IMG/VR virus record: IMGVR_UViG_3300030104_003337
Coordinates: 1-35,240 of that record
DNA length: 35,240 nt
Strand: one strand, 5' to 3'
Source of the DNA: a virus
Shown here: in pieces, positions 13,107-31,166 of the stretch
Layout: the number at the start of each line of letters is the position of its first letter
Position numbering within the stretch: the first letter of the stretch is position 1
Translations under genes and position numbers: made by a program
Notes under the pieces: generated by a model
Database searches by the model: none
What the model was told of the DNA's origin: nothing
The model's input: only the letters and a program-made list of their open reading frames with translations

Positions 13107-13109
13107 GAT

Positions 13110-15503: not shown

Positions 15504-15512
15504 GGTATTTCC

Positions 15513-17594
15513 TTAGAAATTCATACCAAAGTTTTTGGCAGCACGTTTAAAATATTCTAATTGTTTTTTTAGCTCGTTTATTAACGCAACCTCTCCTGGG
15601 GCAACATCAATAACGTGATTAAGCCTAGTTCTTGAAACTTTATAAGCTTGCCTTACATACTCCAATAATTGATCCCCATCAGCACCATCAATATTATCAA
15701 CCACCTCAAGATCAGCGAATGCCCGTGTCCAATTTGGCGCAGTTTCTCCATCCTCTGACCTTAGTTCTGCAAGTGGGGTTTCTATTCTAGCTCTTCTCTC
15801 AAATTCAGCTATTCGATCCCTCATATCTTTTGCAACATTGCTTTGAAACTCGCTTTCTGCTGTTGCCTTGTACTTTTGGTATTCATCTTGGATTTCTTGT
15901 GTCGTGACCTGTCTGTCATTTAGGTCTGGACTAGTTCTTTTCAAACGTACAAATTCCCGTAATCTTGCTTCAAGATCATTAACAAACTTAGCAGCAGCAA
16001 TGTATAAAGTATCTTCCTGTAGACCCTGGCTTCTTAACTCAAGTAAACTTGCACCGGTTCTATTCTTTTCTTCTTTTATAATATTGGTAATTGTGGTGTA
16101 CGCATTATTATCTTCTTTTTGCAGCTTAATTTTTTCTGCATATTCTTTAAGAATATCGCGTTGATCAAAGCGATCAAGACTCTTGCCACCAAATGTGTAA
16201 TCTTCCACCATTTTTCTTAAAAGTGTATTGGTTAATGCGCCATCTTCTAATAGCGCATCTAAATCTTCTTTAATTGGAGTAAAATAAGCTACCCTTAAAT
16301 CTGGACGATATCCACTTAACCCTCTAGTCACTCTAAACGCATATTCTTCAACATTAGGATCAATAGCTTCGTTAATATTCTTTTGTTCTGCATCCGTTAT
16401 GCGCAACGATCTTAGCAGCTCTGGGTCATTAAGAAAATTAACAATCTTTCTTTTTACATCAACAGTAAAAACCGTCCTTGCAGTTAAAGTATCTATTAAA
16501 CCTACTCGACCATTTCTTATAGTTGGATGATTTTCTAAGCCAGTACCTTCTAAAAATTGATCAAAAGCTTTGTTTATCGCGTCTTTAGTCCCTAATTTCC
16601 CATTACCAGGAATTACTTGAAGCCGTGTAATTAAAGTGGACTTGTTTTCTGATACTTCAGCTTCTTTTCTTTTTGTAAAGTCATCAAACTTTTTTCTGCT
16701 TTGTGAGGCATCATCTAGCAATTTATTAAGTAGTTCTGTACCATCAGCGTCCGTCATTTGCGATAAGGCAAATAGAACTTCGGGCGGATTTTCTAGCATA
16801 AAAGCTTTTTTTTGTGCATCATCAAAACCAAGGTTAGCAAGCTTTTTATCAATCGTATTTCCTTCAGCATTATGAAAAGCTATGAGATCAAATACTCTGG
16901 CATCTCCCTTACTGGGGTCGTCTTTTATAAAATCTGAAGTAATTTTCACTCCATATGTTTGATGATAAGTCTGTAAGGCAATTTTACCTTTTTCCGTTAT
17001 GACCATCTCACCAGCTTCATTGCGGGTAAAATTCCCTGATGAGGTCTTTAGAAGAGCATTTTTAGAAGTTATCTGTTCTACAATTGTTGTCCGGCTATTT
17101 AAATTATCAAATACTGCATTTTCTTTTTGCTTTTTTGCCAATGCAGCCCTGGCAGCTATAGCCGTATCTATCTTAGAGCGTAGCCTTAATCTTGCGCCCT
17201 GTTCAGCAATATTAAACTTGCTTTCAAATTTCATTACGGAATTAACATTGGTTCCGATATTATTGCGCAGTGTAGCCTTAATTTCAGCAACCCTCTGCTG
17301 CCAGCGTGGGTTATCGCCATCGAGTACGGAATAAATATTACTATCCCGACCCATATCATATTCTAGCTGTCTAAGCTGGTCACTCGCTGCCAATAGGTTT
17401 TCATCAAGCTTTAATTCTTCAGCCACACGATAACGCTGTAAAGCAACTTCCCGTACCTGGTTTACAAATTCGTTAACAGGGGCTGCTTTATCCAGTTCAG
17501 CCTTTGCTACACTAAAGCTTTTTCTTGCCCGTATAGAAGCTCCTGGAGCGCGGTTGGAAGGATTAAAACTTGCTGTGTAAGTTGGAATACGCAT
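15513..17594 (-). CDS. Helical internal virion protein
   Basis: The 693-aa protein is nearly all charged helix (many Lys, Glu, Arg, Gln), without membrane segments or cysteine clusters. It is followed by the 797-aa and 1127-aa genes and preceded by a gp14-like gene, the position of T7 gp15. Such proteins form the core inside the head and part of the ejection channel. No enzyme motif is seen. The ATG at 17594 follows the previous stop directly. Confidence 0.6.
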   Translation of the reverse strand: MRIPTYTASFNPSNRAPGASIRARKSFSVAKAELDKAAPVNEFVNQVREVALQRYRVAEELKLDENLLAASDQLRQLEYDMGRDSNIYSVLDGDNPRWQQRVAEIKATLRNNIGTNVNSVMKFESKFNIAEQGARLRLRSKIDTAIAARAALAKKQKENAVFDNLNSRTTIVEQITSKNALLKTSSGNFTRNEAGEMVITEKGKIALQTYHQTYGVKITSDFIKDDPSKGDARVFDLIAFHNAEGNTIDKKLANLGFDDAQKKAFMLENPPEVLFALSQMTDADGTELLNKLLDDASQSRKKFDDFTKRKEAEVSENKSTLITRLQVIPGNGKLGTKDAINKAFDQFLEGTGLENHPTIRNGRVGLIDTLTARTVFTVDVKRKIVNFLNDPELLRSLRITDAEQKNINEAIDPNVEEYAFRVTRGLSGYRPDLRVAYFTPIKEDLDALLEDGALTNTLLRKMVEDYTFGGKSLDRFDQRDILKEYAEKIKLQKEDNNAYTTITNIIKEEKNRTGASLLELRSQGLQEDTLYIAAAKFVNDLEARLREFVRLKRTSPDLNDRQVTTQEIQDEYQKYKATAESEFQSNVAKDMRDRIAEFERRARIETPLAELRSEDGETAPNWTRAFADLEVVDNIDGADGDQLLEYVRQAYKVSRTRLNHVIDVAPGEVALINELKKQLEYFKRAAKNFGMNF

Positions 17595-18143
17595 TTATTT
17601 TCCTATGTCTTTCCCACCGTACATTTCATAGCCCATTTGAGCTGACTGGCCTAAACTGCTAATTAATGATTTGGTTCCTTGCGCCTGTAAGCTGGCTGCT
17701 TGTGCGCCACCTTCCATACGCGATAATTCTGCCTGTAATCGGGCATCTTCCTGTTTATCGCTGATTTCCATATTAATCATTTCATTTTCAAACTCCATTT
17801 GGGATAGAGTAAAATCAAATTCCCTTGCGCTTTCCAAACCCACAAAGATAGGCGTACCCTGGGAAAGATCTACACCCGCATAGGCAAATCCGGCACGTTG
17901 CTCACCACGCAAGGCATCAAAGTCCTTTCTGGATCTTTTCTTGGCCGTAATCAGGTTTTGATTAATAATCCCCCGTTGTTTTTCCAGGAGATCAATATCT
18001 CGTTCGATCAAACCGGCATTAAACTCGCCAACTTCCCTGGCTGCTTTCGCTGCACTGTCAGCAGCACGTTTTTGGGTTAATCCCCCTAGGATTGATAACC
18101 CCACACTTACTGCTGGATTAGCTAAAAAAGTAAAAATGCCCAT
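17595..18143 (-). CDS. Internal virion protein, T7 gp14-like
   Basis: The 182-aa protein starts MGIFTFLANPAVSVGLSILG, a hydrophobic Gly/Ala-rich segment, and continues with long helices (AAREVGEFNAGLIERDIDLL, then RSRKDFDALRGEQRAGFAYA) and the GVDLSQGTP motif typical of gp14-like internal virion protein B in short-tailed phages. A TTG-initiated form four residues longer is possible, but ATG 18143 is the better start, next to the tail-tube stop at 18145. It likely forms part of the ejection conduit across the outer membrane. Confidence 0.75.
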   Translation of the reverse strand: MGIFTFLANPAVSVGLSILGGLTQKRAADSAAKAAREVGEFNAGLIERDIDLLEKQRGIINQNLITAKKRSRKDFDALRGEQRAGFAYAGVDLSQGTPIFVGLESAREFDFTLSQMEFENEMINMEISDKQEDARLQAELSRMEGGAQAASLQAQGTKSLISSLGQSAQMGYEMYGGKDIGK

Positions 18144-18144
18144 A

Positions 18145-20517
18145 TTAAATATCAAATGTTGTTAATCGTGGATAAATCGCCAACACAGTGAGTGGTAAAG
18201 CTTGCGTTTGCCTTATAAACACCGTGTCGTTGTCATAAAATGTGCCTGTAAATTCCACCTCTTTATCTCCTGTAAATAAAGGTACAGCTTCACTAGCTGC
18301 CATAGAACTATCCCTAAAAGGAACACTTTCCAGTGTGGAACTATTTGGACCTACGTCCAGCCCTACCGTATTCAACAATCGAACCGTTACACCATGTAAT
18401 CTCTTGGGCTTACCCTGGCTTGTGCCATCCACACTGCCAGCTTCTAAACGTAGGGTTTTCATATTGGAATTATAGCCTAAACCCATTACAGCCAAGGTGC
18501 TGTCATAGCTTAAAGTAACATCACCACCGCTTACTGTTCTCACAGCATGAGCCGCACCATTTGCCGTAATAGAAATAATTTGACCCTCTAAATGCCATAA
18601 TCCTGTCATGGCTGTCGTTCTTGCTGTGGAATAGTCCACAGGCGTAGGCCAAGCATCAGGGCCAGGAAACGTTAAAGCACTATCGCAGAAAAAAGCTTCT
18701 TCCGTTGTCGTTCCAAATTCTATTGATTTTAATCTTTCTATATACCTTTTTGTGGCCCCATTAATTGTTCTTTTAACAATTAAATATAATTCATCTTCCC
18801 CATCACTTGATGGTAAGGTTGCAATACTTTCTACAACGGCGTTTGTTTGTGATGCACATCTTAAATTGTTGTCATCTGAGGATGTTGCTGTAACCACCTG
18901 ACCAATGGACGATTTAATTGTTACAGCTGCTGAACTGGCTGTCGCTGTGAAATCACTATGGTTATTGATCGTTGTTGCTAGATTTGTAGCCGTTGTATTA
19001 CTATCATTAAGAACGGGAATAAAATGCAGCGTGGATGTTGCTGACGTTGTTCCTGGGGGATCAGATGTAAAAGTTACACTTGTTCCATCCCCTTTTGCTA
19101 ATGTTATTGTTTTCCCACCAAAAGAAGAAGTGACACTACCCACATTTACCGTTGTTGTTCCTATGACCCCGCCAATAACGTGCTTGGACCACGCAACCAC
19201 CTGTTCTTCCCGCCTATACGTCATGGAAAGAAGTGTACCGTCTGATCTTAACGCCCAGACAATACTATCTGGTTCTTGTTGATAGGCAAATTCCGTAATA
19301 CCACCTTTTGTAATATGCTCAGAAAGTATGGTCATATCAGGGGCTTGGTACCCAAACTCATCGACATCACCAACATACTTAAACTCTCGGACTTTTCGCC
19401 CATTACGCTGCAAAAACAAGGTAACATCAGCGACCTGTACAGGAGCTACCGTGGCAGAACCGTAATTACTGTATTTTCTAATGAGCGTTGTGGTCGGTGT
19501 TATTGGACCTTCATTGGATGTTGTGACAACAAATTCACCGCCAGCCGTACCCACCGTTAAAACACGGGTTGCACTCATCCATCTAATTTCATTAACAGTA
19601 TTACTTGCAATGGTGTAAATCAAAGCATCATCCGCTGTTGCAGATCCAACAGCAAAATTATCGTAATCGCCATTTTTTGAAAACCACAGTGTTTGTGGGT
19701 TCGTAGCCGTATTGGCAAATACCAGCCGTTGCTCAAAAAACGTAACGACAGAGGGATAATGGTTGGCACTATTAATGGTTGGTGATGGTGTGCCGGCAAC
19801 GCTGAAATCAGAAAAAGCCCAGGCGTTATTAGCCGTTCTTGTTAATGTTTGTATTTTATAACTTGAGTGAACAAAATACATCGTGTCGGCACTTTGAACA
19901 TAGTTTAACCCTGATAAATCTGCTTTTGGATAAATCGTTGCTATTTCATAAATTTTATCAACGGTTTGAGTTTCGCCGGCTGAAAACGTACCTTCACTGG
20001 TAGTATTAATTGCCGCTCCATGTAAATCCGTTAGGGTAAACGTTGTATTAGTTTTATTTGCTATTCTGAAATTTCTGTTTTGCAAATTTGGCAAATAAGT
20101 TGCAGCCTTACCCTCAATATTTAAAAATATTTCATCCCCATTACTTAGCCCGTGATCTGTACTTGTGGTAAAGACCCCAGGATTAGCATTAGTCATGGCT
20201 GATAAGGTTTTAGGGGAAACAGTTAAAACTTGCTGTCCATTGCGATACACACGCATGATTTGATCGCCAAATTCTAAAATATAAGTATCTGACGTTTTAA
20301 ACTGAAACGGAATTAACCGCGTTTCATCGTCACTATCCTTAACCTCGCCTAGAAACTCCGTGCCTGGTCTTCGCGTTACCCCACCTTGAGGCAGCACTAA
20401 AAAGTTTGTTAAATCGGACAATCCTTCGGCATATTTTGCCAAACCCGTTCTGCCCGATAAACGGGGCGTGATTTCTCCACCTGTAAAAGAGGATAAGGAT
20501 GGGGCCGATTTAGCCAT
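18145..20517 (-). CDS. Tail tubular protein B (nozzle, T7 gp12-like)
   Basis: The 790-aa protein starts with SFTGGEITPRLSGRTGLAKY, then NFLVLPQGGVTRRPGTEFLG and RLIPFQFKTSDTYILEFGDQ, the hallmark N-terminus of gp12-like nozzle proteins. Later blocks PSVVTFFEQRLVFANT and NPQTLWFSKNGDYDNF (residues ~250-290) are also characteristic. It should form the distal tail tube to which fibres attach. It is coupled to the adaptor gene upstream (shared base at 20517). Length is typical. Confidence 0.9.
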   Translation of the reverse strand: MAKSAPSLSSFTGGEITPRLSGRTGLAKYAEGLSDLTNFLVLPQGGVTRRPGTEFLGEVKDSDDETRLIPFQFKTSDTYILEFGDQIMRVYRNGQQVLTVSPKTLSAMTNANPGVFTTSTDHGLSNGDEIFLNIEGKAATYLPNLQNRNFRIANKTNTTFTLTDLHGAAINTTSEGTFSAGETQTVDKIYEIATIYPKADLSGLNYVQSADTMYFVHSSYKIQTLTRTANNAWAFSDFSVAGTPSPTINSANHYPSVVTFFEQRLVFANTATNPQTLWFSKNGDYDNFAVGSATADDALIYTIASNTVNEIRWMSATRVLTVGTAGGEFVVTTSNEGPITPTTTLIRKYSNYGSATVAPVQVADVTLFLQRNGRKVREFKYVGDVDEFGYQAPDMTILSEHITKGGITEFAYQQEPDSIVWALRSDGTLLSMTYRREEQVVAWSKHVIGGVIGTTTVNVGSVTSSFGGKTITLAKGDGTSVTFTSDPPGTTSATSTLHFIPVLNDSNTTATNLATTINNHSDFTATASSAAVTIKSSIGQVVTATSSDDNNLRCASQTNAVVESIATLPSSDGEDELYLIVKRTINGATKRYIERLKSIEFGTTTEEAFFCDSALTFPGPDAWPTPVDYSTARTTAMTGLWHLEGQIISITANGAAHAVRTVSGGDVTLSYDSTLAVMGLGYNSNMKTLRLEAGSVDGTSQGKPKRLHGVTVRLLNTVGLDVGPNSSTLESVPFRDSSMAASEAVPLFTGDKEVEFTGTFYDNDTVFIRQTQALPLTVLAIYPRLTTFDI

Positions 20518-21122
20518 TAAAATCTGCTTTCAATAAAATCAGAAGCTTCAACACGCTGTGGCGCACCTTCTGTAGCATCCACAAACCGTGCTTCTTTAAG
20601 TTTTTCCTGATAAAGCTGATACGTTGAGTTCATCAGGGTATTGGACCCCGTAATGGCATAACAAACCTCATGGGCCAGTCTTGCCGATAACGCTTCAATT
20701 AAACCACTGTCGTACTGGGTGGTATCGGTAATCTGTCCAATATACTTGATTTTTGCCGTACCCTCATTGGTTAACAGCTTTTTACCTTCAATAACAAACA
20801 CCGGTGATCCATCTGTGGAAGTCATATTATCCTGGGGATAGGTTAAGGTTCCATTGCTAAATTCAAGAACTCTTAAACAAGCCGGATCTGTCGGGAGAAT
20901 AAACTGGCTTTCATAGCCAAAAGCCGGAGAGGAACTGTCCTTAGATAACGCTGCCCTTGAAATTAAACTATTCCAGGGATGCGCTCTAAACACACTGTCA
21001 CGGACATTATCAAACCTTTGATTAATGACGGTCGCTGCCTTTACATTTTCCGTTAGGGAACTAATGGTGCTTGCGCCAATAATATTTAAGGCAAAGTTTG
21101 CAATATCAACTTTTGAGGCCAT
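20517..21122 (-). CDS. Tail tubular protein A (adaptor, T7 gp11-like)
   Basis: The 201-aa protein has the gp11-like layout: helical start (DIANFALNIIGASTISSLTE), FDNVRDSVFRAHPWN, then FILPTDPACLRVLEF and a C-terminal helix ELKEARF-type segment (here KLKEARFVDATEG). It forms the ring between portal and nozzle. It lies next to the nozzle gene as in T7. The promoter is not evident, and a strong terminator stands just upstream at 21147-21164, so part of its transcript must come from read-through. Confidence 0.9.
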   Translation of the reverse strand: MASKVDIANFALNIIGASTISSLTENVKAATVINQRFDNVRDSVFRAHPWNSLISRAALSKDSSSPAFGYESQFILPTDPACLRVLEFSNGTLTYPQDNMTSTDGSPVFVIEGKKLLTNEGTAKIKYIGQITDTTQYDSGLIEALSARLAHEVCYAITGSNTLMNSTYQLYQEKLKEARFVDATEGAPQRVEASDFIESRF

Positions 21123-21134
21123 AAAAAAATCTCC

Positions 21135-21164
21135 AAAAAAAAAGAAGGGGGGATTGCTCCCCCC
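21135..21164 (-). terminator. Terminator between capsid and tail genes
   Basis: On the minus strand GGGGGG-AGCAAT-CCCCCC (21164-21147) forms a six-pair GC stem with a six-base loop, followed by TTCTTTTTTTTT. It comes immediately after the 154-aa decoration-protein stop and before the tail adaptor. It probably sets capsid transcript levels above tail transcript levels. Confidence 0.85.
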
Positions 21165-21172
21165 AACTAGTT

Positions 21173-21637
21173 TTAATCAATGACGTAATGCATTGTGAGT
21201 TCAACGGTGCCTGTACCAGCAGCACCACCCATCACAACAGTAATAGGAATGCCGGTTTTGTCTGCATTCACAACGGAATTTCTTCCTAGTGCAGACGTAG
21301 CAGCAATATCCACTGTCGTAATGCTCGTGCTTGCAGCAGCAGCTTTGTACTCATCAACATCCAGCGCAACGTCTGTGCCGTCACTGTCTTTGTAAGCAGC
21401 ATGGCCTACAGACAAGGTTGTTGATGAACCCATTGCATCATGGACAAGCTCTCCTGAGAGTATTCTTGCGCCATTTGGCAAGTTGAACATTTCGATAACA
21501 TCACCAGACGCTAGGCTGGAAGCTTCATAGAGCGCATACGCAACCCTCATTCGGCCACCCATCTCATTGGGCTTGATGTTTTCTTTCGGATCATTTTGAT
21601 CCCACTTGGTTTTCTGTGCAGAATAAACAGTAGCCAT
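21173..21637 (-). CDS. Small structural protein, probable head decoration protein
   Basis: The 154-aa protein follows the major capsid gene by 13 nt and precedes a terminator. It is small, Gly/Ala/Ser/Thr-rich and beta-like: DVIEMFNLPNGARILSGELV, TTLSVGHAAYKDSDGTDV, ITVVMGGAAGTGTVELTMHY. Proteins with this look directly after the capsid gene of short-tailed phages are virion components, often decorating the head. No enzyme motif is present. Assignment is by position and composition. Confidence 0.6.
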   Translation of the reverse strand: MATVYSAQKTKWDQNDPKENIKPNEMGGRMRVAYALYEASSLASGDVIEMFNLPNGARILSGELVHDAMGSSTTLSVGHAAYKDSDGTDVALDVDEYKAAAASTSITTVDIAATSALGRNSVVNADKTGIPITVVMGGAAGTGTVELTMHYVID

Positions 21638-21650
21638 AATTCAGTTCTCC

Positions 21651-22301
21651 TTATTCGTTACATGCGATTTGGACTACAGAAGTTTCCTGTAGACGAGTCG
21701 CACCAAATGATGAACAATAATAAACTTGAGTGGCGTACGACTTGTCTGCCCTCTCATCTATTTTTGCGGTTGGTTCTTTGCCGATAGCCAACTTCGCGCC
21801 ATCTTGTGCAAAAGCATAGCAAAGTCTGCTTGTACCATCGTCCGTTAGGCGATTGGAACGAATGAACTTAAAGCCCATAAACGTATCAATCTCACCTTGA
21901 ACAAGAGCTTTTACAGTATTGTAATCTGCACTTGTAACGGTTGATAGATTAAGCAAGTCTTCGATTTGCTCCGGTGATACCACCATGTATCTTGGAATAG
22001 ACGGATCAGTATCCGCTTCGTCCAAAATCTTTTTAGCAGAAATCATTTTTGCCAATGATAGCCCCGTGCTGCCATGCACGATCTTTTGTGCTGATGGTAA
22101 AGCTGTGGATGTAGAACCAGTAGTTCCTGTCTTGGCTGTTCCACCAAGAGCAGCAATGATTACGTCATCCATTGCCCGACCAATCGCAGCTGCTGCTGCC
22201 CTGGCATAGGTTGATGTTGGATCAATCAACATGCGTAGCTTATCCTGATCGTCAATAAGATCCGCATATTCATAATCGGTTAGAGTTACCATGCGTCTTG
22301 C
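21651..22301 (-). CDS. Major capsid protein, exon 2
   Basis: Exon 2 gives 216 residues beginning ARRMVTLTDYEYADLIDDQD, directly continuing exon 1 (..DTPLMDTPH + ARRMVTL). The join restores the DTPH.RRMVTL..YE.AD sequence normal in capsid proteins of this phage group. Further blocks AAAAAIGRAMDDVIIAALGG, KMISAKKILDEAD, RYMVVSPEQIEDLL and FMGFKFIRSNRL are typical of HK97-fold capsid subunits. The spliced protein is 285 aa. Without splicing, translation could start at an AUG formed by the last three intron bases (22304-22302), with AGGGTGA seven bases upstream, giving an N-terminally shortened form. Confidence 0.9.
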   Translation of the reverse strand, partial: ARRMVTLTDYEYADLIDDQDKLRMLIDPTSTYARAAAAAIGRAMDDVIIAALGGTAKTGTTGSTSTALPSAQKIVHGSTGLSLAKMISAKKILDEADTDPSIPRYMVVSPEQIEDLLNLSTVTSADYNTVKALVQGEIDTFMGFKFIRSNRLTDDGTSRLCYAFAQDGAKLAIGKEPTAKIDERADKSYATQVYYCSSFGATRLQETSVVQIACNE

Positions 22302-22547
22302 CATTTATGTTCACCCTGGCTCGTTAGTTCCAGGACCGCCTTTCGGCTGCTGTATATCACTATACAGATCAGACTATATCATCATCCTTTTAGGATGCTC
22401 TGCGCTTCGGATCACTTGACCCTACGCCTTTCGGCTAGTCGTTGAACCTTCCTGTTTCCAGGCTTGGCTGCTGATTATCTCATTGAGACTTCCCAGCAAT
22501 TCACAGAGTTTTCAAATTATATTGCTATAATAGGCCACTACAAGTTA
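22302..22547 (-). ncRNA. Group I self-splicing intron in the capsid gene (IA-like)
   Basis: The 246-nt intron (base 1 = 22547) shows every core element. P1: exon CCAU plus UA pairs with UAGUGG (i8-13), a U.G at the 5' splice site. P2: i17-22/27-32 with GCAA loop. P3: i40-46/144-150. P4: i50-54/75-79. P5: i60-63/67-70. P6a: i86-89/94-97 with GAAA loop. P7: GACUA i108-112 with UAGUC i172-176. Two extra hairpins, i113-122 and i126-139, are P7.1/P7.2 as in subgroup IA. P8: i151-156/160-165. P9: i181-187/192-198, then P9.1 and P9.2. P10: i4-8 with exon 2 GCAAG. The last base is the required G. The P, Q, R, S sequences are canonical (AAUCAGCAGCCAAG, GUUCAACGACUA, GAUAUAGUCU). There is no endonuclease ORF. 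Confidence 0.95.
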
Positions 22548-22754
22548 ATGGGGTGTGTCCATCAATGGGGTATCCCCATGTCTGGTCGTTCTGGCTTGAG
22601 CAGCAGCACTGCCGACTTGCTCAAAAAATGCCTTGTCACCATTAACAGTTTCAACGTCTACTGCTTCACGCAAAAGGGAACCCATTTGCTGTGACAACAT
22701 TTGGACATTGGCACTGTACTGATTGACAAAGGCGGTGGTTACTTGGGTACTCAA
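22548..22754 (-). CDS. Major capsid protein, exon 1
   Basis: Exon 1 encodes 69 residues, STQVTTAFVNQYSANVQML after the initiator, ending RTTRHGDTPLMDTPH. The start is TTG at 22754, six bases after a perfect AGGAGG, so strong translation is expected despite the rare start codon. The first three intron bases are a UAA in frame, so unspliced RNA makes only this 69-residue fragment. The N-terminal sequence (TAFV.QY..NV, GEKAFF-like GDKAFFEQVG) is that of capsid proteins in T7-like marine phages and fits scaffold and portal genes upstream. Confidence 0.9.
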
Positions 22755-22874
22755 AGTACACCTCCTAAGTTAAGTTTATTTAAGGGTTTTTGCGTCTGAT
22801 TATCCCGATAACGGGGTCATTCTTGCTTTTAAGGCCAAGCTATACCGTTGATTTACAACTTACGGGCTGGTCCG

Positions 22875-22901
22875 TGTTATAACTGTTATAAGTGTTATAT
22901 T
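22875..22901. repeat. Triple 9-nt repeat upstream of the capsid gene
   Basis: Three nonamers in a row, tgttataac, tgttataag, tgttatatt, lie in the 152-nt gap between scaffold and capsid genes. Bases 22875-22898 are identical, in opposite orientation, to 27992-28015 in array B upstream of terL. The rest of the gap holds the strong capsid ribosome site and a small CCCG-TTAT-CGGG hairpin near 22805-22815, without a T run. No clear promoter is visible. Confidence 0.75.
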
Positions 22902-22906
22902 GCCGG

Positions 22907-23716
22907 TTATCCAACCATATGATCACGCAGCGATAAGGCTTCCTGAACATAAAAATCGTGCTGTGGATGGGATTTATCCCAGTACGGCGTGTCTTTTGCC
23001 GTGACTTCCATCAGTTTTCTATTGGCTTCCTGGGGGGTCATAATTAAATCAGTTGTTTCACCTTCCAAGGTATCTTCCCCCATTTGACTGGCTAGACCGA
23101 CAAACATACGGATAACTTCCGGATGATCGCCTAAAAGTCTGCCATCAGCTAATTCTACTTTATCTAGCAAGTCCGTTGATCCCATTAATTGATTAACGGC
23201 ATTCTTTGCCAGTTTCATTTTCTGGTCGAACGCTTTGCCGTATTCTTTCTCAAGTTCTTCCCTTCCCTCTTTAACGAGGGTTTCGGTTTTTTCTTTTTGG
23301 ACAGATATTTCGGTACTGGCTTTTTCGGCAATCGATTTCGCCATACGTTCAGCTTGCTTTCCATTAAGACCGGTATCATAAGCAATCTGCTTAAAAGCAT
23401 CCAAATCAGGTTCATCAAAGCCTTGAACAGCTTTAAAGTCATACTGATTGGCAGCATCAGGACGGCCAAGCTTTTGGTAAACATTATTCCATTCCTCATC
23501 AGTTGCGCTTTTGCCAGGGAGTGGCAGCTTATCCGCGCCAATCATTTTCTGGGCGTGGACATAAGATTTCGCTAATCCCGCTGCATCTGTGAAATTCCGT
23601 AAGGATGGTTCGGTTTGCAGTTCTTCGGGTAGGGTATTAATAAAATGCACTGGGGCAGCTTCGGTTGCGGGAGCTTCCTGAGATCCAGGGTTTTCCTGGG
23701 TTGTCTCTTCATTCAT
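22907..23716 (-). CDS. Capsid scaffolding protein
   Basis: The 269-aa protein has the standard layout of podovirus scaffolds: an acidic, low-complexity start (EETTQENPGSQEAPATEAAP), then FINTLPEELQTEPSLRNF, DAAGLAKSYVHAQKMIGADK, LPLPGKSATDEEWNNVYQKL and GRPDAANQYDF. A long Lys/Glu helix (residues ~130-190) follows. It directs assembly of the prohead and leaves before packaging. Position between portal and capsid genes is as expected. The start overlaps the preceding gene by eight bases. Confidence 0.9.
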   Translation of the reverse strand: MNEETTQENPGSQEAPATEAAPVHFINTLPEELQTEPSLRNFTDAAGLAKSYVHAQKMIGADKLPLPGKSATDEEWNNVYQKLGRPDAANQYDFKAVQGFDEPDLDAFKQIAYDTGLNGKQAERMAKSIAEKASTEISVQKEKTETLVKEGREELEKEYGKAFDQKMKLAKNAVNQLMGSTDLLDKVELADGRLLGDHPEVIRMFVGLASQMGEDTLEGETTDLIMTPQEANRKLMEVTAKDTPYWDKSHPQHDFYVQEALSLRDHMVG

Positions 23717-23960
23717 TCGATATTCCTCTTTGTTGTTGCGGTTGTTTTTGTGGCTCCAACATTCTTAAAATATTCAAAACAACGGACCTCTGCCCTTCAA
23801 AGAAAGCAGTGTCATGGGAATCCCCTTTGGCATAAGTGGTCTGGTAAAACCCAAAGCATATTTTTAAATGCTCCAGCACCATTTCCCCATCATCACTTTT
23901 AAACACACGCTGATAGTTTCCCTTCAGCTGTTCTGTAGTAATTTCATTGATGTTCTTCAT
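23709..23960 (-). CDS. Bbp19-like small phage protein
   Basis: The 83-aa protein has a helix FKSDDGEMVLEHLKICFGFY followed by FFEGQRSVVLNILRMLE, the pattern of the Bbp19-like family (acquired next to portal genes in many short-tailed phages). Its function is unknown; location between portal and scaffold suggests a role in head assembly. It overlaps the portal stop by four bases (ATGA-type) and the scaffold start by eight. Confidence 0.7.
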   Translation of the reverse strand: MKNINEITTEQLKGNYQRVFKSDDGEMVLEHLKICFGFYQTTYAKGDSHDTAFFEGQRSVVLNILRMLEPQKQPQQQRGISNE

Positions 23961-25591
23961 GCAGCGGGCGGTGTCCCAGCTGCGGTTTCTCTGGCTTCAG
24001 CATCCGCAAGAACTTTAAGCATTGGGGCTGCTTTCTGGGCCTGTTCAGCGTTCATCATTTCCTGTTGCTGCTGGGCTTGCATTTGCTGCTGTTGAGCTTG
24101 CTGTTCTCTTAATGCACTTACCTCTTCATTACTGCGAATAACCTTGGCGGGCATTCCGGCAACATCAACCAAATACTTCACCAGGCCATCATCATCAATG
24201 TAATCCATAACCGGTAAGGCTTCCCCTAGCTGTAATAAGACCTCAAGACCGCGCATCATGGACTGTAAATCCGTAAGTTTCTGCGCTTTTGCTAATGGAG
24301 AGACATATTCAATATCAATATCCCTGCCCTGTAATTCTTCGGGTGGTGGCTCCAGCTTTCCGTTTCTCAGCATAAGCTTAAAAGAACGGTCAATTAACGG
24401 CTGTAATAATTCAGACTGCAAACGGCCCATCACCGGACCCAATAGCCTCATTTTCTCTTCGTTTCTCTGCAGCACTTCCGTGGCTGTCATTTGCGGTCCA
24501 GACTGTAATTGCAGCTGATCCACATAAAACGCAGCACGAATAGCATTTCTGCGCTGTTCTTCCATAGCAATGCCAATCGGATTGGTAGCACCGGCCTGTA
24601 AAGGTTCAAGCCTGTCTCTGGTTCCAGTCCGATAGAAATTCAATGCGCCTGGGGTAGTACGCACCGGGAGAAGAAAACCATCGTCTGGAACCATAAGGGG
24701 CGGGTCAATCTGCTTTTGGGCAGCCCGAATACTGACTTCGGACATTTTATTGACCATTTTAACGTCCGGTAAGCAGCTCATGGCCGGGGAACGTCCGTAA
24801 ATGGATACACTGTCCTTATTAAATCTTGGTACACAGAAAGGCAGTTCATCAAAACCGCCCTCTCCCAACAGCATTTTACTGTCAGGATGATAGTATAATG
24901 ATCCTACAGGCTTGCGGATTGTCGTTGATCCAAGCTTGTCTTCCCTGGGATACACCACATGAATAACATCATGGTCATTATAAGGATCTTTTTCGAGGTC
25001 TTTCTTAACTTTATCAGGGAGATTATCGTCACCAAAACGCTGCGCTATCTGCCTCGCATTAAGCTGAAACTTTCTATACACCGTATCCACACGGTCATTC
25101 ATATCCTCACTAATGCATATTTCCGCAATGTGCCTGGTGGAAAACCGTAATCCCTGATCATCAAAATCAACAAATAAACAACCCGTGCCGAATACAACAA
25201 GATCATAATATAATTCATGGATTTCCTGTTGAAAATTAGACCGCTGGTATTCCTTGTTAATCAGTTCCGCACAGCCCTCTAGCCATTCATTGGCAGTATC
25301 ATTGGCAGCTAATTCCAAATCACGGTAGCGCATGGAAAACCAGGGACTGGAAGGACTGGTTAACATGCCATGCAAACTAGACGCTAATAATTCCACCGCA
25401 TGAATAGCCGTACTATCATAGATTAATTCGGTTCTTTTATCGCCCTGGGTCCGTCTTTTGGTAATATCAGCCTTTCGGGGAAGCATATAATCAGCTAATT
25501 CTTGCCAATGGCTTTCCCATTGACTGCGCTGCGAATGCAGTTTTTGATACCGCCGGTCTAACGCAACCACCGTTTTGTTTGCACTTGCCAT
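23957..25591 (-). CDS. Portal protein (head-to-tail connector)
   Basis: The 544-aa protein belongs to the bacteriophage head-to-tail connecting family. Visible marks are RRYQKLHSQRSQWESHWQEL, the conserved YDSTAIHAVELLASSLHGML, TSPSSPWFSMRYRDLEL, FGTGCLFVDFDD, then YGRSPAMSCLPDVKMVNKMS and PQMTATEVLQRNEEKMRLLG. A Gln-rich tail ends the protein. It forms the dodecameric portal through which DNA is packed and leaves. The ATG overlaps the stop of the preceding small basic gene (TAATG). Confidence 0.95.
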   Translation of the reverse strand: MASANKTVVALDRRYQKLHSQRSQWESHWQELADYMLPRKADITKRRTQGDKRTELIYDSTAIHAVELLASSLHGMLTSPSSPWFSMRYRDLELAANDTANEWLEGCAELINKEYQRSNFQQEIHELYYDLVVFGTGCLFVDFDDQGLRFSTRHIAEICISEDMNDRVDTVYRKFQLNARQIAQRFGDDNLPDKVKKDLEKDPYNDHDVIHVVYPREDKLGSTTIRKPVGSLYYHPDSKMLLGEGGFDELPFCVPRFNKDSVSIYGRSPAMSCLPDVKMVNKMSEVSIRAAQKQIDPPLMVPDDGFLLPVRTTPGALNFYRTGTRDRLEPLQAGATNPIGIAMEEQRRNAIRAAFYVDQLQLQSGPQMTATEVLQRNEEKMRLLGPVMGRLQSELLQPLIDRSFKLMLRNGKLEPPPEELQGRDIDIEYVSPLAKAQKLTDLQSMMRGLEVLLQLGEALPVMDYIDDDGLVKYLVDVAGMPAKVIRSNEEVSALREQQAQQQQMQAQQQQEMMNAEQAQKAAPMLKVLADAEARETAAGTPPAA

Positions 25592-25785
25592 TAAGCCATT
25601 CCCAACATGGATTGTTTCTTTTTCTTTTTAAGGCCGGCCATACTGCGACCGTGGGTCTTTCCAGCTTGCTTTTGCTGTAATCGCTCCAGCGGATCAACAT
25701 TCATGGAAAAACGCATACTTTCCAGCGGCTGTGACGATAATGACCCCATCATGCCAGCCATATTCTTTTTTTTCTTGCCAAACAT
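25591..25785 (-). CDS. Small lysine-rich protein between terL and portal
   Basis: The 64-aa protein starts MFGKKKKNMAGMMGSLSSQP and ends GLKKKKKQSMLGMA; Lys clusters at both ends flank a short middle with VDPLERLQQKQ. It is methionine- and lysine-rich, with no known fold. Both ends overlap neighbouring genes, so it is translated within the packaging/head operon. Basic clusters might bind DNA or the portal, but this is speculation. Confidence 0.5.
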   Translation of the reverse strand: MFGKKKKNMAGMMGSLSSQPLESMRFSMNVDPLERLQQKQAGKTHGRSMAGLKKKKKQSMLGMA

Positions 25786-26363
25786 TACGCACTCGCCAGT
25801 AAGGATTGAGATGATCCAGGCTGATAGGATGCCAGCATTCCCATTCTTGCCCCTCTTTTTGGCCGTAATCCCGTTTTATCGCTCTTAGAAATGCCCTGGG
25901 AAGGGATGTCAGCCTCATTGGCTATCGTCCCGCCCTTTAATCCTATTTCCACATCTTGCAGCACACTTTGTATTGCCGGCGTGTTTACAGGCTGCTCCTT
26001 CTTTTCTTCTACTACTTCAGCTACTTCTTCCTCTTCTTCTTCAGCAACTTCCGTTACAATAGATTTCTTGGCTGCATTCCTGGCATCAGCCCTGTCATCT
26101 TTATCCTTTTCAGCCTGTGTGCGTGTATCCTCATAAGGACGCATAACATTCTCGCCATTAACTTTAATAACAGCGTTACTTCCCTGTTTCGCCAGTTCAT
26201 CAACTTGCTGCTGTGCGTTTAACTTCCAGTTATCCGTATCAGAACTATCAAGATAATCAGAAGCTGTTAGGTTCTTTTTCTTTTTATCTGATCCAAAATA
26301 ACTGCCCACAACCTGCGTAGCATCCCCTTTCGGTATCCCAAAGAAATCTAAAATACTTCCCAT
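25785..26363 (-). CDS. Uncharacterised acidic/coiled protein after terL
   Basis: The 192-aa protein begins MGSILDFFGIPKGDATQVVG and contains a Lys run (GSDKKKKN), a charged helix (RTQAEKDKDDRADARNAAKK) and a striking acidic stretch of about 14 Glu/Val/Ala residues (VAEEEEEEVAEVVEE). The C-terminus is Gly/Ser-rich (LRPKRGARMGMLASYQPGSS). It overlaps the terL stop. Similar spacer genes between large terminase and portal are common in short-tailed phages and have no known role. No motif permits a better name. Confidence 0.5.
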   Translation of the reverse strand: MGSILDFFGIPKGDATQVVGSYFGSDKKKKNLTASDYLDSSDTDNWKLNAQQQVDELAKQGSNAVIKVNGENVMRPYEDTRTQAEKDKDDRADARNAAKKSIVTEVAEEEEEEVAEVVEEKKEQPVNTPAIQSVLQDVEIGLKGGTIANEADIPSQGISKSDKTGLRPKRGARMGMLASYQPGSSQSLLASA

Positions 26364-27643
26364 TACATCCTCGCTTCAAATGGATTATAAGTCATTTCTG
26401 CCTGTTTTTGCGGGGGCCTGAGACTGCTCGATGTATCCCGATGACCCACCGCAAAGGTACGCCAGGCATCGGCTCCATGAGAAGCCCAGTTATGCACCGG
26501 CGTGGATCTAAATGTACGCATACGCTCGTTATATGCCCTGTGATAATGCCTTAAACTCTCCAAGCCAACCTTACACGCATCACGGTCAAACCAGCATTTC
26601 GGTATGATTATCTTGGCTGCGTGTATGCCATCTTCCAGGGGCAGTTTCGGCACTACTCTGAAATTAATTCCCAGATCATAGGCCGTTTCCCTTCTGGACT
26701 TACCAGAACCCAGCTCTCGCACCTCGATGTCATGGGGAGCATTGTGTGTTCCGTACAAATATCCCCGCTCTTGCAGTATTCTGACATAATACGGTAAGCC
26801 CTCGCCCCTGTTTTCATAATAATCAATCACATGAACGGCACGGCCTACCGTTTGCGTAAACCAAATGGATGTACTGTCATTCACACCCAGATCCCACCAG
26901 GTGTCCACCTTATGACCCTCATCATAAGGCACATGCGTAACCTGACCGTTGGAACTAATCTTTTCTATTTCCTTCGCATAAATAGCACCGGGAACATTCG
27001 CAACCCATGAACACTCATACTCCTGATTATACTGATCCTCAGACATGCTTTTCTTCGCACTGTCCAATTCCTCATCATCAAGAATACCGGTCTCAGAGGC
27101 CTTAAATATGGCCGTGTGCCAGTCATCCGACTCCAGGGCCATTTCATATAACTCATAGAAATGGTTCATGCCCTGGGGCGTTCCAGCCATAATACAGTAG
27201 CCCTTACGGTCACTTAATGCCGGCCGTATCACTTCCGGAAACAAAGACGGTAAAATCTGGCTGTATTCATCCAGAAAAACACCATCCAAATAAATACCCC
27301 TCAATGAATCAGGCTGTTCAGATCCCAGCAGCTGTATCCTCGCACCATTCGGTAAATCGCACCGCAGTTCCGTCTCGTTAAACCGGACCATAGGTATCGC
27401 AGAAGAAAACTGCTTCAAATAATCCCACGCTACCGCTTTCGCCTGTCGATAGGTAGGGGCTATATACGCAAACCTGGGGTTCGGCTTATCGGTCATAATC
27501 GCATCTCTAAGAAGATGATTAATCGCCATAACCGTCTTACCAGCCCTACGATGACAAACCACAACACCCCACCGCTTGGATTGCAGCTTGGCATGTAAAT
27601 CCCTCTGCAATGGACGGGGCGTATACGGGATCTTGATTTGCAT
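26363..27643 (-). CDS. terL: Terminase large subunit
   Basis: The 426-aa packaging motor has both domains. The ATPase part shows Walker A CHRRAGKT (residues 30-37), Walker B GVFLDEYSQI (Asp125, Glu126) and the coupling motif MAGTPQG (152-158). The nuclease part shows three acidic residues in the RNase-H-like fold: Asp251 (WWDLGVND), Asp305 (APHDIEV) and Asp392 (HGADAWR). It cuts concatemers and pumps DNA into proheads. It is somewhat short but complete. The ATG at 27643 is coupled (TGATG) to an 11-residue basic leader ORF. Confidence 0.95.
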   Translation of the reverse strand: MQIKIPYTPRPLQRDLHAKLQSKRWGVVVCHRRAGKTVMAINHLLRDAIMTDKPNPRFAYIAPTYRQAKAVAWDYLKQFSSAIPMVRFNETELRCDLPNGARIQLLGSEQPDSLRGIYLDGVFLDEYSQILPSLFPEVIRPALSDRKGYCIMAGTPQGMNHFYELYEMALESDDWHTAIFKASETGILDDEELDSAKKSMSEDQYNQEYECSWVANVPGAIYAKEIEKISSNGQVTHVPYDEGHKVDTWWDLGVNDSTSIWFTQTVGRAVHVIDYYENRGEGLPYYVRILQERGYLYGTHNAPHDIEVRELGSGKSRRETAYDLGINFRVVPKLPLEDGIHAAKIIIPKCWFDRDACKVGLESLRHYHRAYNERMRTFRSTPVHNWASHGADAWRTFAVGHRDTSSSLRPPQKQAEMTYNPFEARM

Positions 27644-27678
27644 CAGTAGGTCTTCTTCTTTTTCTTCTTCTTTGGCAT
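27643..27678 (-). CDS. 11-residue poly-lysine leader peptide ahead of terL
   Basis: A tiny frame, ATG at 27678 to TGA overlapping the terL ATG, encodes MPKKKKKKKTY. Its codons are an almost pure purine tract (AAG/AAA), which could instead be an S1-type enhancer or AG-rich ribosome site for terL. No good ribosome site precedes its own ATG. The overlap TGATG suggests that, if translated, it couples to terL. Confidence 0.35.
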   Translation of the reverse strand: MPKKKKKKKTY

Positions 27679-27776
27679 GGCTGTGTGTGTTTGGTTGTTG
27701 GATGGGTGATATAACAATACTAGAAGCGCGCGCAATTTTTGGGAGGGTGGGGGTCGGCTGCCCTCATAAAATACTA

Positions 27777-27853
27777 GGTCATAGGTTACAACCCTACGAC
27801 CATCCTCAATAAAATAAGGACATGATTATTCATATTGACATTTCGTTGACATT
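27777..27853. repeat. attP-like repeat cluster far from attP
   Basis: An imperfect dyad, GGTCATAGGTT (27777) facing AACCCTACGACC (27790-27801), matches family B of the attP arm sites. It is followed by two family A sites, ATTGACATT (27834) and GTTGACATT (27845), spaced 11 nt, the same spacing as in attP. The cluster lies in the 369-nt gene-free stretch upstream of terL (27679-28047). No gene or clear promoter is seen there otherwise. Confidence 0.6.
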
Positions 27854-27942
27854 TACGGGCATTCAATTTTAAAAATCAAACCAGGCAGGGGCATACGCGA
27901 ACAGGTAGAAAGTCTATACAATAGAATGGACATCCCCACATT

Positions 27943-28059
27943 CTCATGTCTCTCATAAGCCAGTTCGTACAGTTCGTATAGTTCGTTAGGCATAACACTT
28001 ATAACAGTTATAACATCCACCTACTCTTCCTACTCCCACTACTCCCACTACTCCCTTAC
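27943..28059. repeat. Phased 9-nt repeat array B
   Basis: In one fixed 9-nt phase from 27943, thirteen units form groups: ctcatgtct, ctcataagc; then cagttcgta, cagttcgta, tagttcgtt; then aggcataac, acttataac, agttataac; then atccaccta, ctcttccta, ctcccacta, ctcccacta, ctcccttac. The phase is kept across group borders, as in array A at 932-1084. The array runs into the stop codon region of the 71-aa gene (28048). The third group overlaps the 24-nt sequence found inverted at 22875-22898. Function unknown. Confidence 0.8.
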
Positions 28060-28263
28060 CCTACGCTCAATCCATAGCATCTCATCGTCAGTAACATCAC
28101 TCAGTTCCTTCACAATAATAGGATGCTCATTAAAACTATCTGTGTACTTCACTAGATCATAAGAACCTACAACATCCTTTAGAATAAACTCACGCAAAGT
28201 CCTGATCCTTTCAAAGTGCGTCCTGGTCCACTGTCGTTCTAACATCCATCCAGGGATCATCAC
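28048..28263 (-). CDS. Uncharacterised 71-aa protein after terS
   Basis: The protein reads MMIPGWMLERQWTRTHFERI, REFILKDVVGSYDLVKYTDS and ends EMLWIERRVRE. It is probably a small helical soluble protein. It overlaps the small-terminase stop (TGATGA), so it is coupled to terS. I recognise no family. A packaging accessory role is only suggested by location. Its 3' end is made of the last units of array B. Confidence 0.5.
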   Translation of the reverse strand: MMIPGWMLERQWTRTHFERIRTLREFILKDVVGSYDLVKYTDSFNEHPIIVKELSDVTDDEMLWIERRVRE

Positions 28264-28667
28264 TCCCTCTCCCAGCTCACAGTAATCGTACCGGACTGCG
28301 CCTTACTATCCTGTGGATTATTCCTAATACCACCTAATGGCTGGAGCTGTCTCTTCAGCTTATCCAGGTTATCCAGTTTAATCCTTCTCCATGTAGCTTC
28401 TGCCATTGCTATCTTAGGATCATCAGGTAAGGGCTTATTAATAATATCCCTCATCTGATCCTCAATATGCGCACCCTGTATAGCCCGTGCTTTAGCATAA
28501 GCCTCATACGCTTTATCATTATTCTGCACATATGCAGCAACAGTTTTTCTATGAGGTAAATGCGGAGTATTCTCACACATACTGGTTAAGCTTTCCCCAT
28601 CACATAACCGCTCAATCACTTCAGCAAATATATCCTTGGTAACAATACTGGTTCCTCTAGCTCCCAT
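28260..28667 (-). CDS. terS: Terminase small subunit
   Basis: The 135-aa protein has an N-terminal DNA-binding HTH-like part (TKDIFAEVIERLCDGESLTS, then HLPHRKTVAAYV), a helical middle EAYAKARAIQGAHIEDQMRD, and RIKLDNLDKLKRQLQPLGG with a short tail. 'YAKAR..Q' and the 'D.R.W..KL.P..YG'-like end are typical of small terminases that recognise the packaging site. It stands two genes ahead of terL. Start ATG 28667 follows AGGAAAC and overlaps the HNH stop. Confidence 0.8.
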   Translation of the reverse strand: MGARGTSIVTKDIFAEVIERLCDGESLTSMCENTPHLPHRKTVAAYVQNNDKAYEAYAKARAIQGAHIEDQMRDIINKPLPDDPKIAMAEATWRRIKLDNLDKLKRQLQPLGGIRNNPQDSKAQSGTITVSWERE

Positions 28668-28873
28668 TACTGTTTCCTTCTATTGGCATAAGCTGACAGT
28701 ATGGATAAATTCCTTTTCCCGTTATTCCTTGGGTTACCATCTCGATGATCAATATGCTTTCCATCTCCTTTGGATACTCTGCCTGATCGTTCAGCTGCCC
28801 TTCTATTCTTATTCCTCAACGCTCGTTCCTGTTTCATCCTGGTAGAGCTATGATACTTTTGATATTCACTCAT
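28667..28873 (-). CDS. HNH endonuclease-like protein
   Basis: From ATG 28873 this 68-aa protein has a basic helical start (TRMKQERALRNKNRRAAERS) and the HNH signature GKHIDHRDGNPRNN...NL...(A)NRRK: His40, Asp42, His43, Asn50/51, Asn55, Asn64. Such small HNH proteins sit next to terminase genes and can help cut DNA at packaging; others are homing nucleases. It is short, with no zinc-binding cysteines. A longer upstream reading frame to 28987 is unlikely because the promoter lies at 28992-29019 and the longer part is not protein-like. Confidence 0.75.
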   Translation of the reverse strand: MSEYQKYHSSTRMKQERALRNKNRRAAERSGRVSKGDGKHIDHRDGNPRNNGKRNLSILSAYANRRKQ

Positions 28874-28991
28874 AATTATTCCATAAAAAGACCGGTATCT
28901 GGTGACGAACCAAACACCGGCCAAGTTGGAGTACAATACGATGCAAAATAGGGGATCAGGTTTTACGAACAAAACAGAGCAAATCACCCCT

Positions 28992-29019
28992 ATTATAGTA
29001 TCAATATCTAGTATTTCAG
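28992..29019 (-). promoter_or_regulatory. Promoter of the HNH/terminase operon
   Basis: On the minus strand CTGAAA (29019-29014), a 16-nt spacer and a perfect TATAAT (28997-28992) form a good sigma-70 promoter. A second possible pair, TTGACT-16-TAGATA, overlaps it just upstream. It points towards the HNH gene at 28873, leaving a leader of about 110 nt. The repressor-type operator at 29063 lies about 45 nt upstream of the -35. Confidence 0.65.
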
Positions 29020-29033
29020 TTCATTGAGTCAAT

Positions 29034-29078
29034 ACTAAATGTTGCGCTTTACGCATTTAGTGTGACCTTAAAAGTCAT
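29034..29078. promoter_or_regulatory. Operator O4 with adjacent inverted repeat
   Basis: TGACCTTAAAAGTCAT (29063-29078) is a palindromic site of the repressor-operator family and covers the stop codon of the gene ending at 29075. Right beside it, ACTAAATG (29034-29041) and CATTTAGT (29054-29061) form an inverted repeat with a 12-nt loop; no T run follows, so it is a weak terminator at best or another protein site. Confidence 0.55.
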
Positions 29079-29455
29079 AGAACCATAGGTTTCTTCTGAG
29101 TAATGGTATAATGCAGCCTAATAAGAGCATCCATATAGTTCCTTTTTACTGTCCGTCTATCCTGATGATAAGTTCTTGCCAGGACACTCCACTTCGGACC
29201 ACGCTGTCTAAACGCACCAGAATGCGCTACAGCCCACAATAGTCTTCGATCAGTGTCTGAACACTTTTCTAAGAGAAGGTCTATCGTATGCTCGTATTTG
29301 GTGATCTGGAGCGTTGTTGCCCTTGGTAAGCTAGGAACATAGACCACAGTACCATAACTTAACCATTCGGTTTGATACTCAGGCCATGATGCTAGTTTCT
29401 GCTTTCGTATTGCCGGCGGAAGTCTGCGTTCTGTTTCAGCAGCTTCCATAATCAT
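29075..29455 (-). CDS. DUF6362-like protein, possible late regulator
   Basis: The 126-aa protein contains ETERRLPPAIRKQKLASWPE, the signature of DUF6362 proteins in alphaproteobacterial phages, and ends with a region like a sigma-factor or HTH segment: CSDTDRRLLWAVAHSGAF, WSVLARTYHQDRRTVKRNYM, DALIRLHY. Proteins of this type stand just before terminase genes, which suggests a role in switching on late genes. No catalytic residues are seen. Start ATG 29455 (or 29449) has a weak ribosome site. Confidence 0.6.
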   Translation of the reverse strand: MIMEAAETERRLPPAIRKQKLASWPEYQTEWLSYGTVVYVPSLPRATTLQITKYEHTIDLLLEKCSDTDRRLLWAVAHSGAFRQRGPKWSVLARTYHQDRRTVKRNYMDALIRLHYTITQKKPMVL

Positions 29456-29474
29456 CAGATCGAGTTCTTCAACA

Positions 29475-29798
29475 TTACTTGCGAAAATTAAACTGTCTTT
29501 CCAACTGTTTTAAGAATGTCTCTTTAGCCTTTCCTTCCAGGCTTTGAACATGAGCAATAATCTTTAGAAATTCTGATCTGGATAACTTCTTTTCAGCAAT
29601 TCTCATTATTTTCTGAGATAAGTATTCGACCTTATTATCATAATTAGGATCATTATAATGATCTATAGCATTCTTATAATTTAAGTTAGTATACTTAGCA
29701 GCTTTAGAAATCACTTTTTGGAGGTGATTTCTAAGCTGCTGATAATTATTCTTATTATTATTCTTATTGGGATTATTATAATTAGTGCCATCATCCAT
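29475..29798 (-). CDS. Asn-rich uncharacterised protein
   Basis: The 107-aa protein starts MDDGTNYNNPNKNNNKNNYQ, then becomes helical and basic (LRNHLQKVISKAAKYTNLNY; FLKIIAHVQSLEGKAKETFL). The DNA for the first part is a run of near AAT/TTA triplets, so it could vary in length by slippage. An AAGGT lies upstream of the ATG. The operator at 29842 is 44 nt further upstream, so the gene may be repressor-controlled. I recognise no family. Confidence 0.5.
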   Translation of the reverse strand: MDDGTNYNNPNKNNNKNNYQQLRNHLQKVISKAAKYTNLNYKNAIDHYNDPNYDNKVEYLSQKIMRIAEKKLSRSEFLKIIAHVQSLEGKAKETFLKQLERQFNFRK

Positions 29799-29841
29799 TT
29801 TACCTTGTCAACCCCCTAAATGCCTTATTACGAAATTAGCG

Positions 29842-29857
29842 TGACTTTCAAAGTCAC
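29842..29857. promoter_or_regulatory. Operator O3 between dcm and the Asn-rich gene
   Basis: TGACTTTCAAAGTCAC contains the perfect 15-nt odd palindrome TGACTTT-C-AAAGTCA; with flanks GTGAC...GTCAC it is 17 nt. It is the most symmetrical copy of the operator family (compare 2912, 29063, 31846, 31977) and lies in the 80-nt gap between the methyltransferase stop and the next gene. A weak promoter (TTGAAA-15-TAATAA) may overlap it. Confidence 0.65.
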
Positions 29858-29878
29858 AGATTATGTTATTATTCACCA

Positions 29879-30961: not shown

Positions 30962-31166
30962 TGCAGTTCTTCCGGTCTTGATGGTGGAATAGCACTGTAA
31001 TGGGCATGTCTTTCATAATGCTCATACCAAAAAGAAAAGCTCTCATCATGCGGTGTGCATGGGATATGAATGTTATGATGGGTGAACTGAAGCAGCTGCT
31101 TAACCACTTCAATGCATTGTTCTGGGTTTGGAAACTCTAAAAGAAGAACAGCTAGTTGGATTTCAT
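30958..31166 (-). CDS. Small ORF between VRR-NUC and dcm with a disrupted start
   Basis: A frame open from 31188 to TGA 30958 reads EIQLAVLLLEFPNPEQCIEV, VKQLLQFTHHNIHIPCTP, SFWYEHYERHAHYS, ending PSRPEELQ. It looks like a real ~67-aa protein and its stop overlaps the dcm ATG (ATGA). But it has no start codon in frame before a GTG well inside. ATG 31166, after GGGAAAG, is in the other frame: adding one A to the run after it would give MKIQLAVLLLEF. So either the start is broken by an indel, the sequence has an error, or a frameshift is used. Confidence 0.4.

Follow-up and report, generated by a model that had tools for sequence, protein, structure and literature searches.

How does a group I intron that encodes no endonuclease come to interrupt the major capsid gene of a phage, and by what route could such an element reach new positions within that gene? 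The question is raised by a 35,240-nt stretch of viral DNA from IMG/VR (analyzed over its whole length and referred to here as the window; Table 1), a 35.2-kb record whose gene content includes an integrase, terminase subunits, a head-tail connector, and tail and virion proteins. Its source is a roughly 35-kb integrase-bearing phage, kin of the marine (Pelagibacter-type) podoviruses. Relatives of its capsid protein in cellular genomes are mostly alphaproteobacterial, and we infer an alphaproteobacterial host.

The capsid gene, which adjoins other virion and head-assembly genes, lies in two pieces. Exon 1 matches positions 1 to 66 of Pfam profile PF19821 (E = 2.9e-17) and exon 2 matches positions 68 to 293 (E = 5.9e-71), and against phrog_3437 the two match contiguous halves (4 to 72 and 73 to 292). 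Judged by these profiles, they are one major capsid protein (PF19821) of 285 aa, split between His69 and Ala70. Most of 80 IMG/VR relatives have a gap of 0 at the junction and read DTPH, then Ala or Ser, then RRM; their exon DNA joins as CCCCAT/GCAAGACGC at the position of the window intron (slashes mark junctions here and below). The best 40 capsid records listed from a phage collection, with Pelagibacter phages first, are all uninterrupted. A sequence-only reading of the window had proposed that the capsid gene is split in two and that splicing restores DTPH-ARRM. The contiguous profile halves bear this out, as do the relatives, which read through the junction without any protein insertion.

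The sequence between the exons matches the Rfam group I intron model (Intron_gpI, RF00028) on the minus strand at 22350-22551, with 106.2 bits (E = 7.9e-27) against a gathering cut-off of 50 bits and over the full length of the model (1-253). The group I assignment of the sequence-only reading is thereby upheld, and so are its coordinates: the exon CCAU ending at 22548, the U22548·G22538 pair that marks the 5' splice site, the terminal G22302, and the P10 pairing of CUUGU with GCAAG all agree. Splice sites shifted one base downstream would also be in frame (H-S-R-R), but the U·G pair and P1 register would be lost, and the closest relatives have Ala. RF00028 is the sole Rfam match in the window at gathering scores, which argues against a group II intron. 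An intein is rejected because UAA is the first intron codon, leaving no in-frame protein insertion; translation of unspliced RNA would stop there. That the intron is ORF-less, as had been claimed, also stands: no ORF of at least 60 aa is contained in 22302-22547, where the longest stop-free run is 47 codons. With no endonuclease ORF in its 246 nt, it is not an endonuclease-encoding (homing) intron, and with no ORF and no fused transposase, it is not an IStron. The intron ends in ATG (window 22304-22302), in frame with exon 2, so that a separate C-terminal part of the capsid protein, 217 aa long, could be made from unspliced RNA; upstream of this ATG lies AGGG, which is not conserved in two relatives with an intron at the same site (contigs L350 and L401).

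Table 1. Features of the window, the split capsid gene, and the intron with its helices.
Feature	Position	Strand	Details
Source window	1..35,240		IMGVR_UViG_3300030104_003337 (IMG/VR), positions 1-35,240; 35,240 nt, one strand
Exon 1, major capsid gene	22548..22754	-	69 aa, TTG start after AGGAGGT; ends ...DTPH / CCAU
Exon 2, major capsid gene	21651..22301	-	216 aa + stop; begins GCA AGA CGC (ARR)
Group I intron, IA2-like (P7.1, P7.2, P9.1, P9.2)	22302..22547	-	246 nt, no ORF; RF00028 and covariation
In-frame UAA directly 3' of exon 1	22545..22547	-	ORF list and sequence
P1	22535..22551	-	5' exon CCAU (22551-22548) with guide GUGG (22538-22535)
P10 guide strand CUUGU	22540..22544	-	pairs with 3' exon GCAAG, 22301-22297
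P2	22516..22531	-	22531-22526/22521-22516; 6/6 pairs with two-sided changes, 100% of cells paired
P3	22398..22508	-	22508-22502/22404-22398; 99% of cells paired, 4 pairs with two-sided changes
P4-P6a region	22447..22499	-	P4 22499-22494/22473-22468; P5 22489-22485/22481-22477
P6, P6a	within 22447..22499	-	P6 22467-22466/22448-22447; P6a 22462-22459/22454-22451
P7	22372..22440	-	22440-22436/22376-22372; 100% of cells paired, 2 covarying pairs, 3 invariant
P7.1 and P7.2	22409..22435	-	P7.1 22435-22433/22428-22426; P7.2 22422-22418/22413-22409; 8/8 pairs with two-sided changes
P8	22383..22397	-	22397-22392/22388-22383; 5/6 pairs with two-sided changes
P9, P9.1, P9.2	22315..22367	-	P9 22367-22361/22356-22350; P9.1 22347-22345/22340-22338; P9.2 22334-22330/22319-22315
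Terminal (omega) G	22302..22302	-	3' splice site after G22302; sequence and in-frame DTPH-ARRM as in relatives

Thirteen helices, from P2 through P9.2 and with P7.1 and P7.2 among them, were mapped onto the sequence and counted on an alignment of 14 related introns, in which 95.7% of cells are paired and 50 of the 64 pairs show two-sided changes. The covariation score of 0.672 compares with 0.209 ± 0.014 after shuffling, with none of 500 shuffles as high, and falls to 0.16 or less when partners are slid. Independently, RNAalifold gives largely the same nested helices; the crossing P7 cannot be drawn by that program. Minimum free energy folding of the single intron was only modestly better than shuffles (z = -2.5), and covariation was used as evidence instead. 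P3 encloses P4-P6a and P7.1/P7.2 and is crossed by P7, an arrangement common to all group I cores. The P7.1/P7.2 hairpins that the sequence-only reading had drawn are borne out, with two-sided changes in every pair, and sit between the 5' strand of P7 and the 3' strand of P3; P9.1 and P9.2 are also present. Hairpins P7.1 and P7.2 in that position, together with P9.1 and P9.2, are the defining features of the IA2 subgroup, and the window intron, classed by its helices, is IA2-like.

A gene in two pieces might also result from degeneration of an insertion, from chimeric assembly, or from breakage of the capsid gene, and the window is a single contig. Such an origin is nevertheless highly improbable given the covarying fold, the intact core, two exons that are both intact and conserved, and the occupation of the same site (207, in spliced capsid nucleotides) in four other contigs from several samples. 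The element is very probably a functional, endonuclease-free group I intron, with self-splicing predicted from its sequence. In the late mRNA, the guide GUGG would pair with exon CCAU through the U·G pair, exogenous guanosine would attack after U22548, and G22302 and P10 would set the 3' splice site, so that exon ligation would produce an uninterrupted 285-aa capsid protein.

The window intron appears to be a member of a mobile set that colonizes the capsid gene at many sites. The sequence-only reading could see neither that this phage group as a whole has at least 15 intron sites in the gene nor the signs of movement between them. An insertion search by chained tblastn covered 481 capsid loci (365 distinct capsid regions) and placed introns of 191 to 279 nt at window-capsid nucleotides 127, 180, 190, 194, 204, 207 (the window), 213, 251, 276, 455, 596, 604, 775, 819, and 833. 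Site representatives exceed the Rfam gathering cut-off, except some site-596 introns at 39 to 41 bits. Nine of the 15 sites fall within 150 nt (P of about 0.008 under uniform placement, for a window width chosen afterwards), and some capsid genes contain two introns. Scans anchored on exon 1 found at least one intron in 29 of 120 distinct complete genes, a proportion that describes the nearest relatives of two intron-bearing lineages and is not a population frequency. A first estimate of 30 of 328 loci was set aside as biased against exon-2 introns because exon-2 queries rank split genes lower. When whole records of two sets of 50 relatives (about 98 records, 2.15 Mb in union) were searched with Rfam, all 36 RF00028 matches accorded, in number per record, with mapped capsid introns; no record had more matches than mapped capsid introns, and no intron was found outside the capsid gene in the 2.15 Mb.

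The set is not uniform. A second, shorter intron lineage occupies sites 194 and 596 (L021, L032, L355, L400, L450, and others); it is without P7.1/P7.2-like hairpins and resembles IC3. The site-596 intron is very common, and introns at 194 and 596 are up to 78% identical to one another; site-194 introns share about 50% identity or less with the window intron. At site 251 (L096, L097, L101, L102, and L416), exact restoration of ADLIDD needs A rather than G as the last intron base; a canonical G at the end would add one Tyr to the product (ADLYIDD).

Each guide is fitted to its own exon. Across 23 introns at 11 sites, every guide pairs with its 5' exon via a U·G at the splice site, and guides vary by site (GTGG, GCGG, GGGC, GAGCC, GGAG, GCAG, GGGAC, and GGGTCG), the shortest helices being those of the site-194 introns, with 3 pairs. 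At site 190, a synonymous codon change is matched in the guide: exon ACCAT occurs with GTGG and ACCGT with GCGG. The nearest capsid relative of the window (L003, 95% amino acid identity) has its intron, 76% identical to the window's, not at 207 but at 833, with a re-matched guide (CUGU/GCAG compared to CCAU/GUGG in the window). Several sites have a weak P10 or none (833 in L003, 213 in L033, and 180 in L101). Since a guide match would be needed for survival after any insertion, guide fit alone is no proof of RNA-guided entry: a poorly matched insertion would not splice and would be lost whatever its route. Between the window and L003, the segment at about 21690-21172 (the 3' end of the capsid gene and the next gene) is 96.7% identical, compared to about 70-75% elsewhere outside the capsid gene. 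Its upstream breakpoint, at spliced capsid nt 818/819, lies 14 nt from the L003 intron site, which suggests recent recombination near site 833.

Evidence for movement comes first from site 207 itself. The intron recurs there in L350 (89-90% identical to the window intron), L506 (90%), L505 (93%), and L401 (88%), and the capsid genes of L401 and L505 are only about 65-66% identical to that of the window (nucleotides or exon-2 amino acids). Between the window and L505, the introns are 93% identical and the flanking exon is 50-83% identical right up to the junction. With intron identity so high and flank identity so low, the site-207 intron appears to have spread between divergent phages with no visible co-conversion.

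A second line of evidence connects two different sites. The site-207 intron of L401 and the site-455 intron of L355 are 97% identical (8 substitutions), at positions 248 nt apart in capsid genes that are 66% identical and in contigs that are otherwise 69-73% identical. The only near-identical block that they share is CCAT, the intron, and GCAA; flanking DNA was not transferred. Site 207 in L355 is empty and a perfect match, CCCCAT/GCAAGACGC. The targets at 207 (CCAT/GCAA) and 455 (CCAT/TGCAA) pair with the same unchanged guide, and the 455 target, CCATTGCAA, is found in 10 of 295 intronless genes. With P1 matched, a P10 match as good as the one at site 455 is expected by chance at about 2% of positions. 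In IMG/VR (2.9 million viral contigs), a 23-nt guide-region pattern recovered five contigs, all in the capsid gene, four at site 207 and one at site 455. The intron of the window itself lacks a 97% counterpart elsewhere, and the L401/L355 pair is 87-88% identical to it; near-identical introns at guide-sharing sites without flank transfer are therefore a property of the lineage, not of the window's own copy. The 207/455 pair fits, but does not prove, a guide-directed ectopic transposition such as reverse splicing.

The spread of group I introns to new sites by reverse splicing is a proposal decades old. Here, intron RNA would reverse-splice into abundant capsid mRNA and the product would be copied into cDNA and recombined into the genome. 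As a tentative reading, we favor such guide-directed transposition into capsid mRNA, with reverse transcription and recombination as the later steps. The reasons are that the intron lacks an ORF, that no endonuclease gene was found nearby, that the flanks stayed in place, that the unchanged guide suits the new site, and that the sole gene affected is expected to be very highly expressed. If the most abundant late transcript were the preferred target, the restriction of the introns found to the capsid gene, at about 15 sites, would be explained. No reverse transcriptase family was among the Pfam matches listed for the scanned ORFs.

The same distribution could arise at the DNA level if a free-standing endonuclease cut intronless capsid genes and recombination copied the intron in, with site 455 representing relaxed cleavage. 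Collaborative homing of this kind is described in T7-like phages and for cyanophage psbA (PMC10448857), and HNH ORFs occur in some of the nearest isolate introns from other phage genes, as in the DNA polymerase gene of nACB1. The window itself has a weak HNH_3 ORF (28670-28987), which is below the Pfam cut-off and lies beside the small terminase gene. We consider this route rather unlikely here, since no HNH, GIY-YIG, or LAGLIDADG family is among the Pfam matches listed for ORFs of ten intron-bearing contigs, HNH_3 exceeds the cut-off in only 3 of 36 records and in none near the capsid gene, site-207 introns occur in divergent phages without a co-conversion tract, and about 15 sites are occupied. 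Beside the capsid gene in the ten contigs, the families listed include no endonuclease.

Illegitimate recombination during co-infection could instead have joined the intron to site 455 through CCAT and GCAA microhomology, with selection retaining the fitting guide, and the block shared by L401 and L355 is indeed bounded exactly by CCAT and GCAA. Yet two precise 4-nt junctions at the exact intron ends would be needed, and related introns occupy many other sites with different targets, making this route improbable.

A further possibility is that nothing moved within the gene and that introns immigrated repeatedly from a general phage pool residing in DNA polymerase, terminase, and ribonucleotide reductase (RNR) genes. 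In a core tree, the capsid introns are interspersed among those of other phage genes, and the 194/596 introns form a distinct shorter lineage; monophyly of the capsid introns is unsupported by that tree, in which support is low. Given this interleaving, at low support, repeated immigration probably also contributes. As the full account it is doubtful: it is probably contradicted by the 97% identity between sites 207 and 455, and it leaves unexplained why no introns were found in the rest of these genomes.

An intron in a capsid gene has precedents. The sequence-only reading called such a location unusual, and phage introns do lie mainly in nucleotide- and DNA-metabolism genes and terminases (PMC11878797), but group I introns in capsid genes were already known. 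In mycobacteriophage LittleE, likewise, a group I-type intron interrupts the HK97-fold major capsid gene, with splicing proven by RT-PCR and N-terminal sequencing (PMC3706429), and that article cites a capsid-gene group I intron in lactococcal phage Tuc2009. The LittleE intron is 819 nt long with a LAGLIDADG-like ORF and sits at one site in an unrelated siphovirus, in contrast to the ORF-less 246 nt of the window at one of about 15 sites. The crAss-like Delta and Zeta phages also have group I introns in the major capsid gene, one Zeta gene being in five pieces (PMC7886860); those introns were recognized via endonuclease domains and occur in PolB, primase, and other genes as well, whereas the introns here lack an endonuclease and are confined, in the records searched, to the capsid gene. 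Phage IA introns in DNA polymerase, nrdE, terL, and rpoB genes (nACB1, phiNIT1, Vibrio R16F, and 201phi2-1) belong to the same structural lineage, and these nearest isolate introns share 68-81% nucleotide identity with the window intron over the matched core. The nearest, that of nACB1, lies in another host gene and, unlike the window intron, encodes an HNH endonuclease. In Vibrio phage R16F (L338), terL is annotated in four pieces with gaps of about 230-250 nt and is apparently multi-intron, with an intron of the same lineage.

Outside phages, related group I introns at different sites of one gene are known from fungal rDNA, a kinship that has been interpreted as circumstantial support for guide-directed transposition through reverse splicing (PMC1299323; review, PMC3984707). 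The genes concerned there encode nuclear rRNA, in contrast to a phage protein-coding gene with 97% inter-site identity and an intact empty original site. Mirusvirus capsid genes are similarly intron-rich, with sites that vary among close relatives (PMC12768974), but their introns are spliceosomal and reside in eukaryotic viruses. In the mainly open-access literature searched, we found no endonuclease-free, capsid-confined intron set with near-identical copies at different sites, and no report of introns in Pelagibacter-phage capsids. What is less ordinary than a capsid-gene intron is the population picture, with 15 sites in the capsid gene and none found elsewhere in the relatives searched.

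For annotation, it matters that introns of this kind break capsid genes in marine viral contigs into two or three apparent fragments. For phage biology, a 2025 study asks why introns colonize only nucleotide- and DNA-metabolism genes (PMC11878797), and the present comparisons suggest that endonuclease-free capsid introns can move to new sites without a DNA-cutting enzyme of their own. The question of how introns spread could be tested directly in this system: the ribozyme is small and free of an endonuclease, the target encodes a protein, copies that are 97% identical occupy two sites, the original site persists intact and empty, and nature supplies many guide/exon variants.
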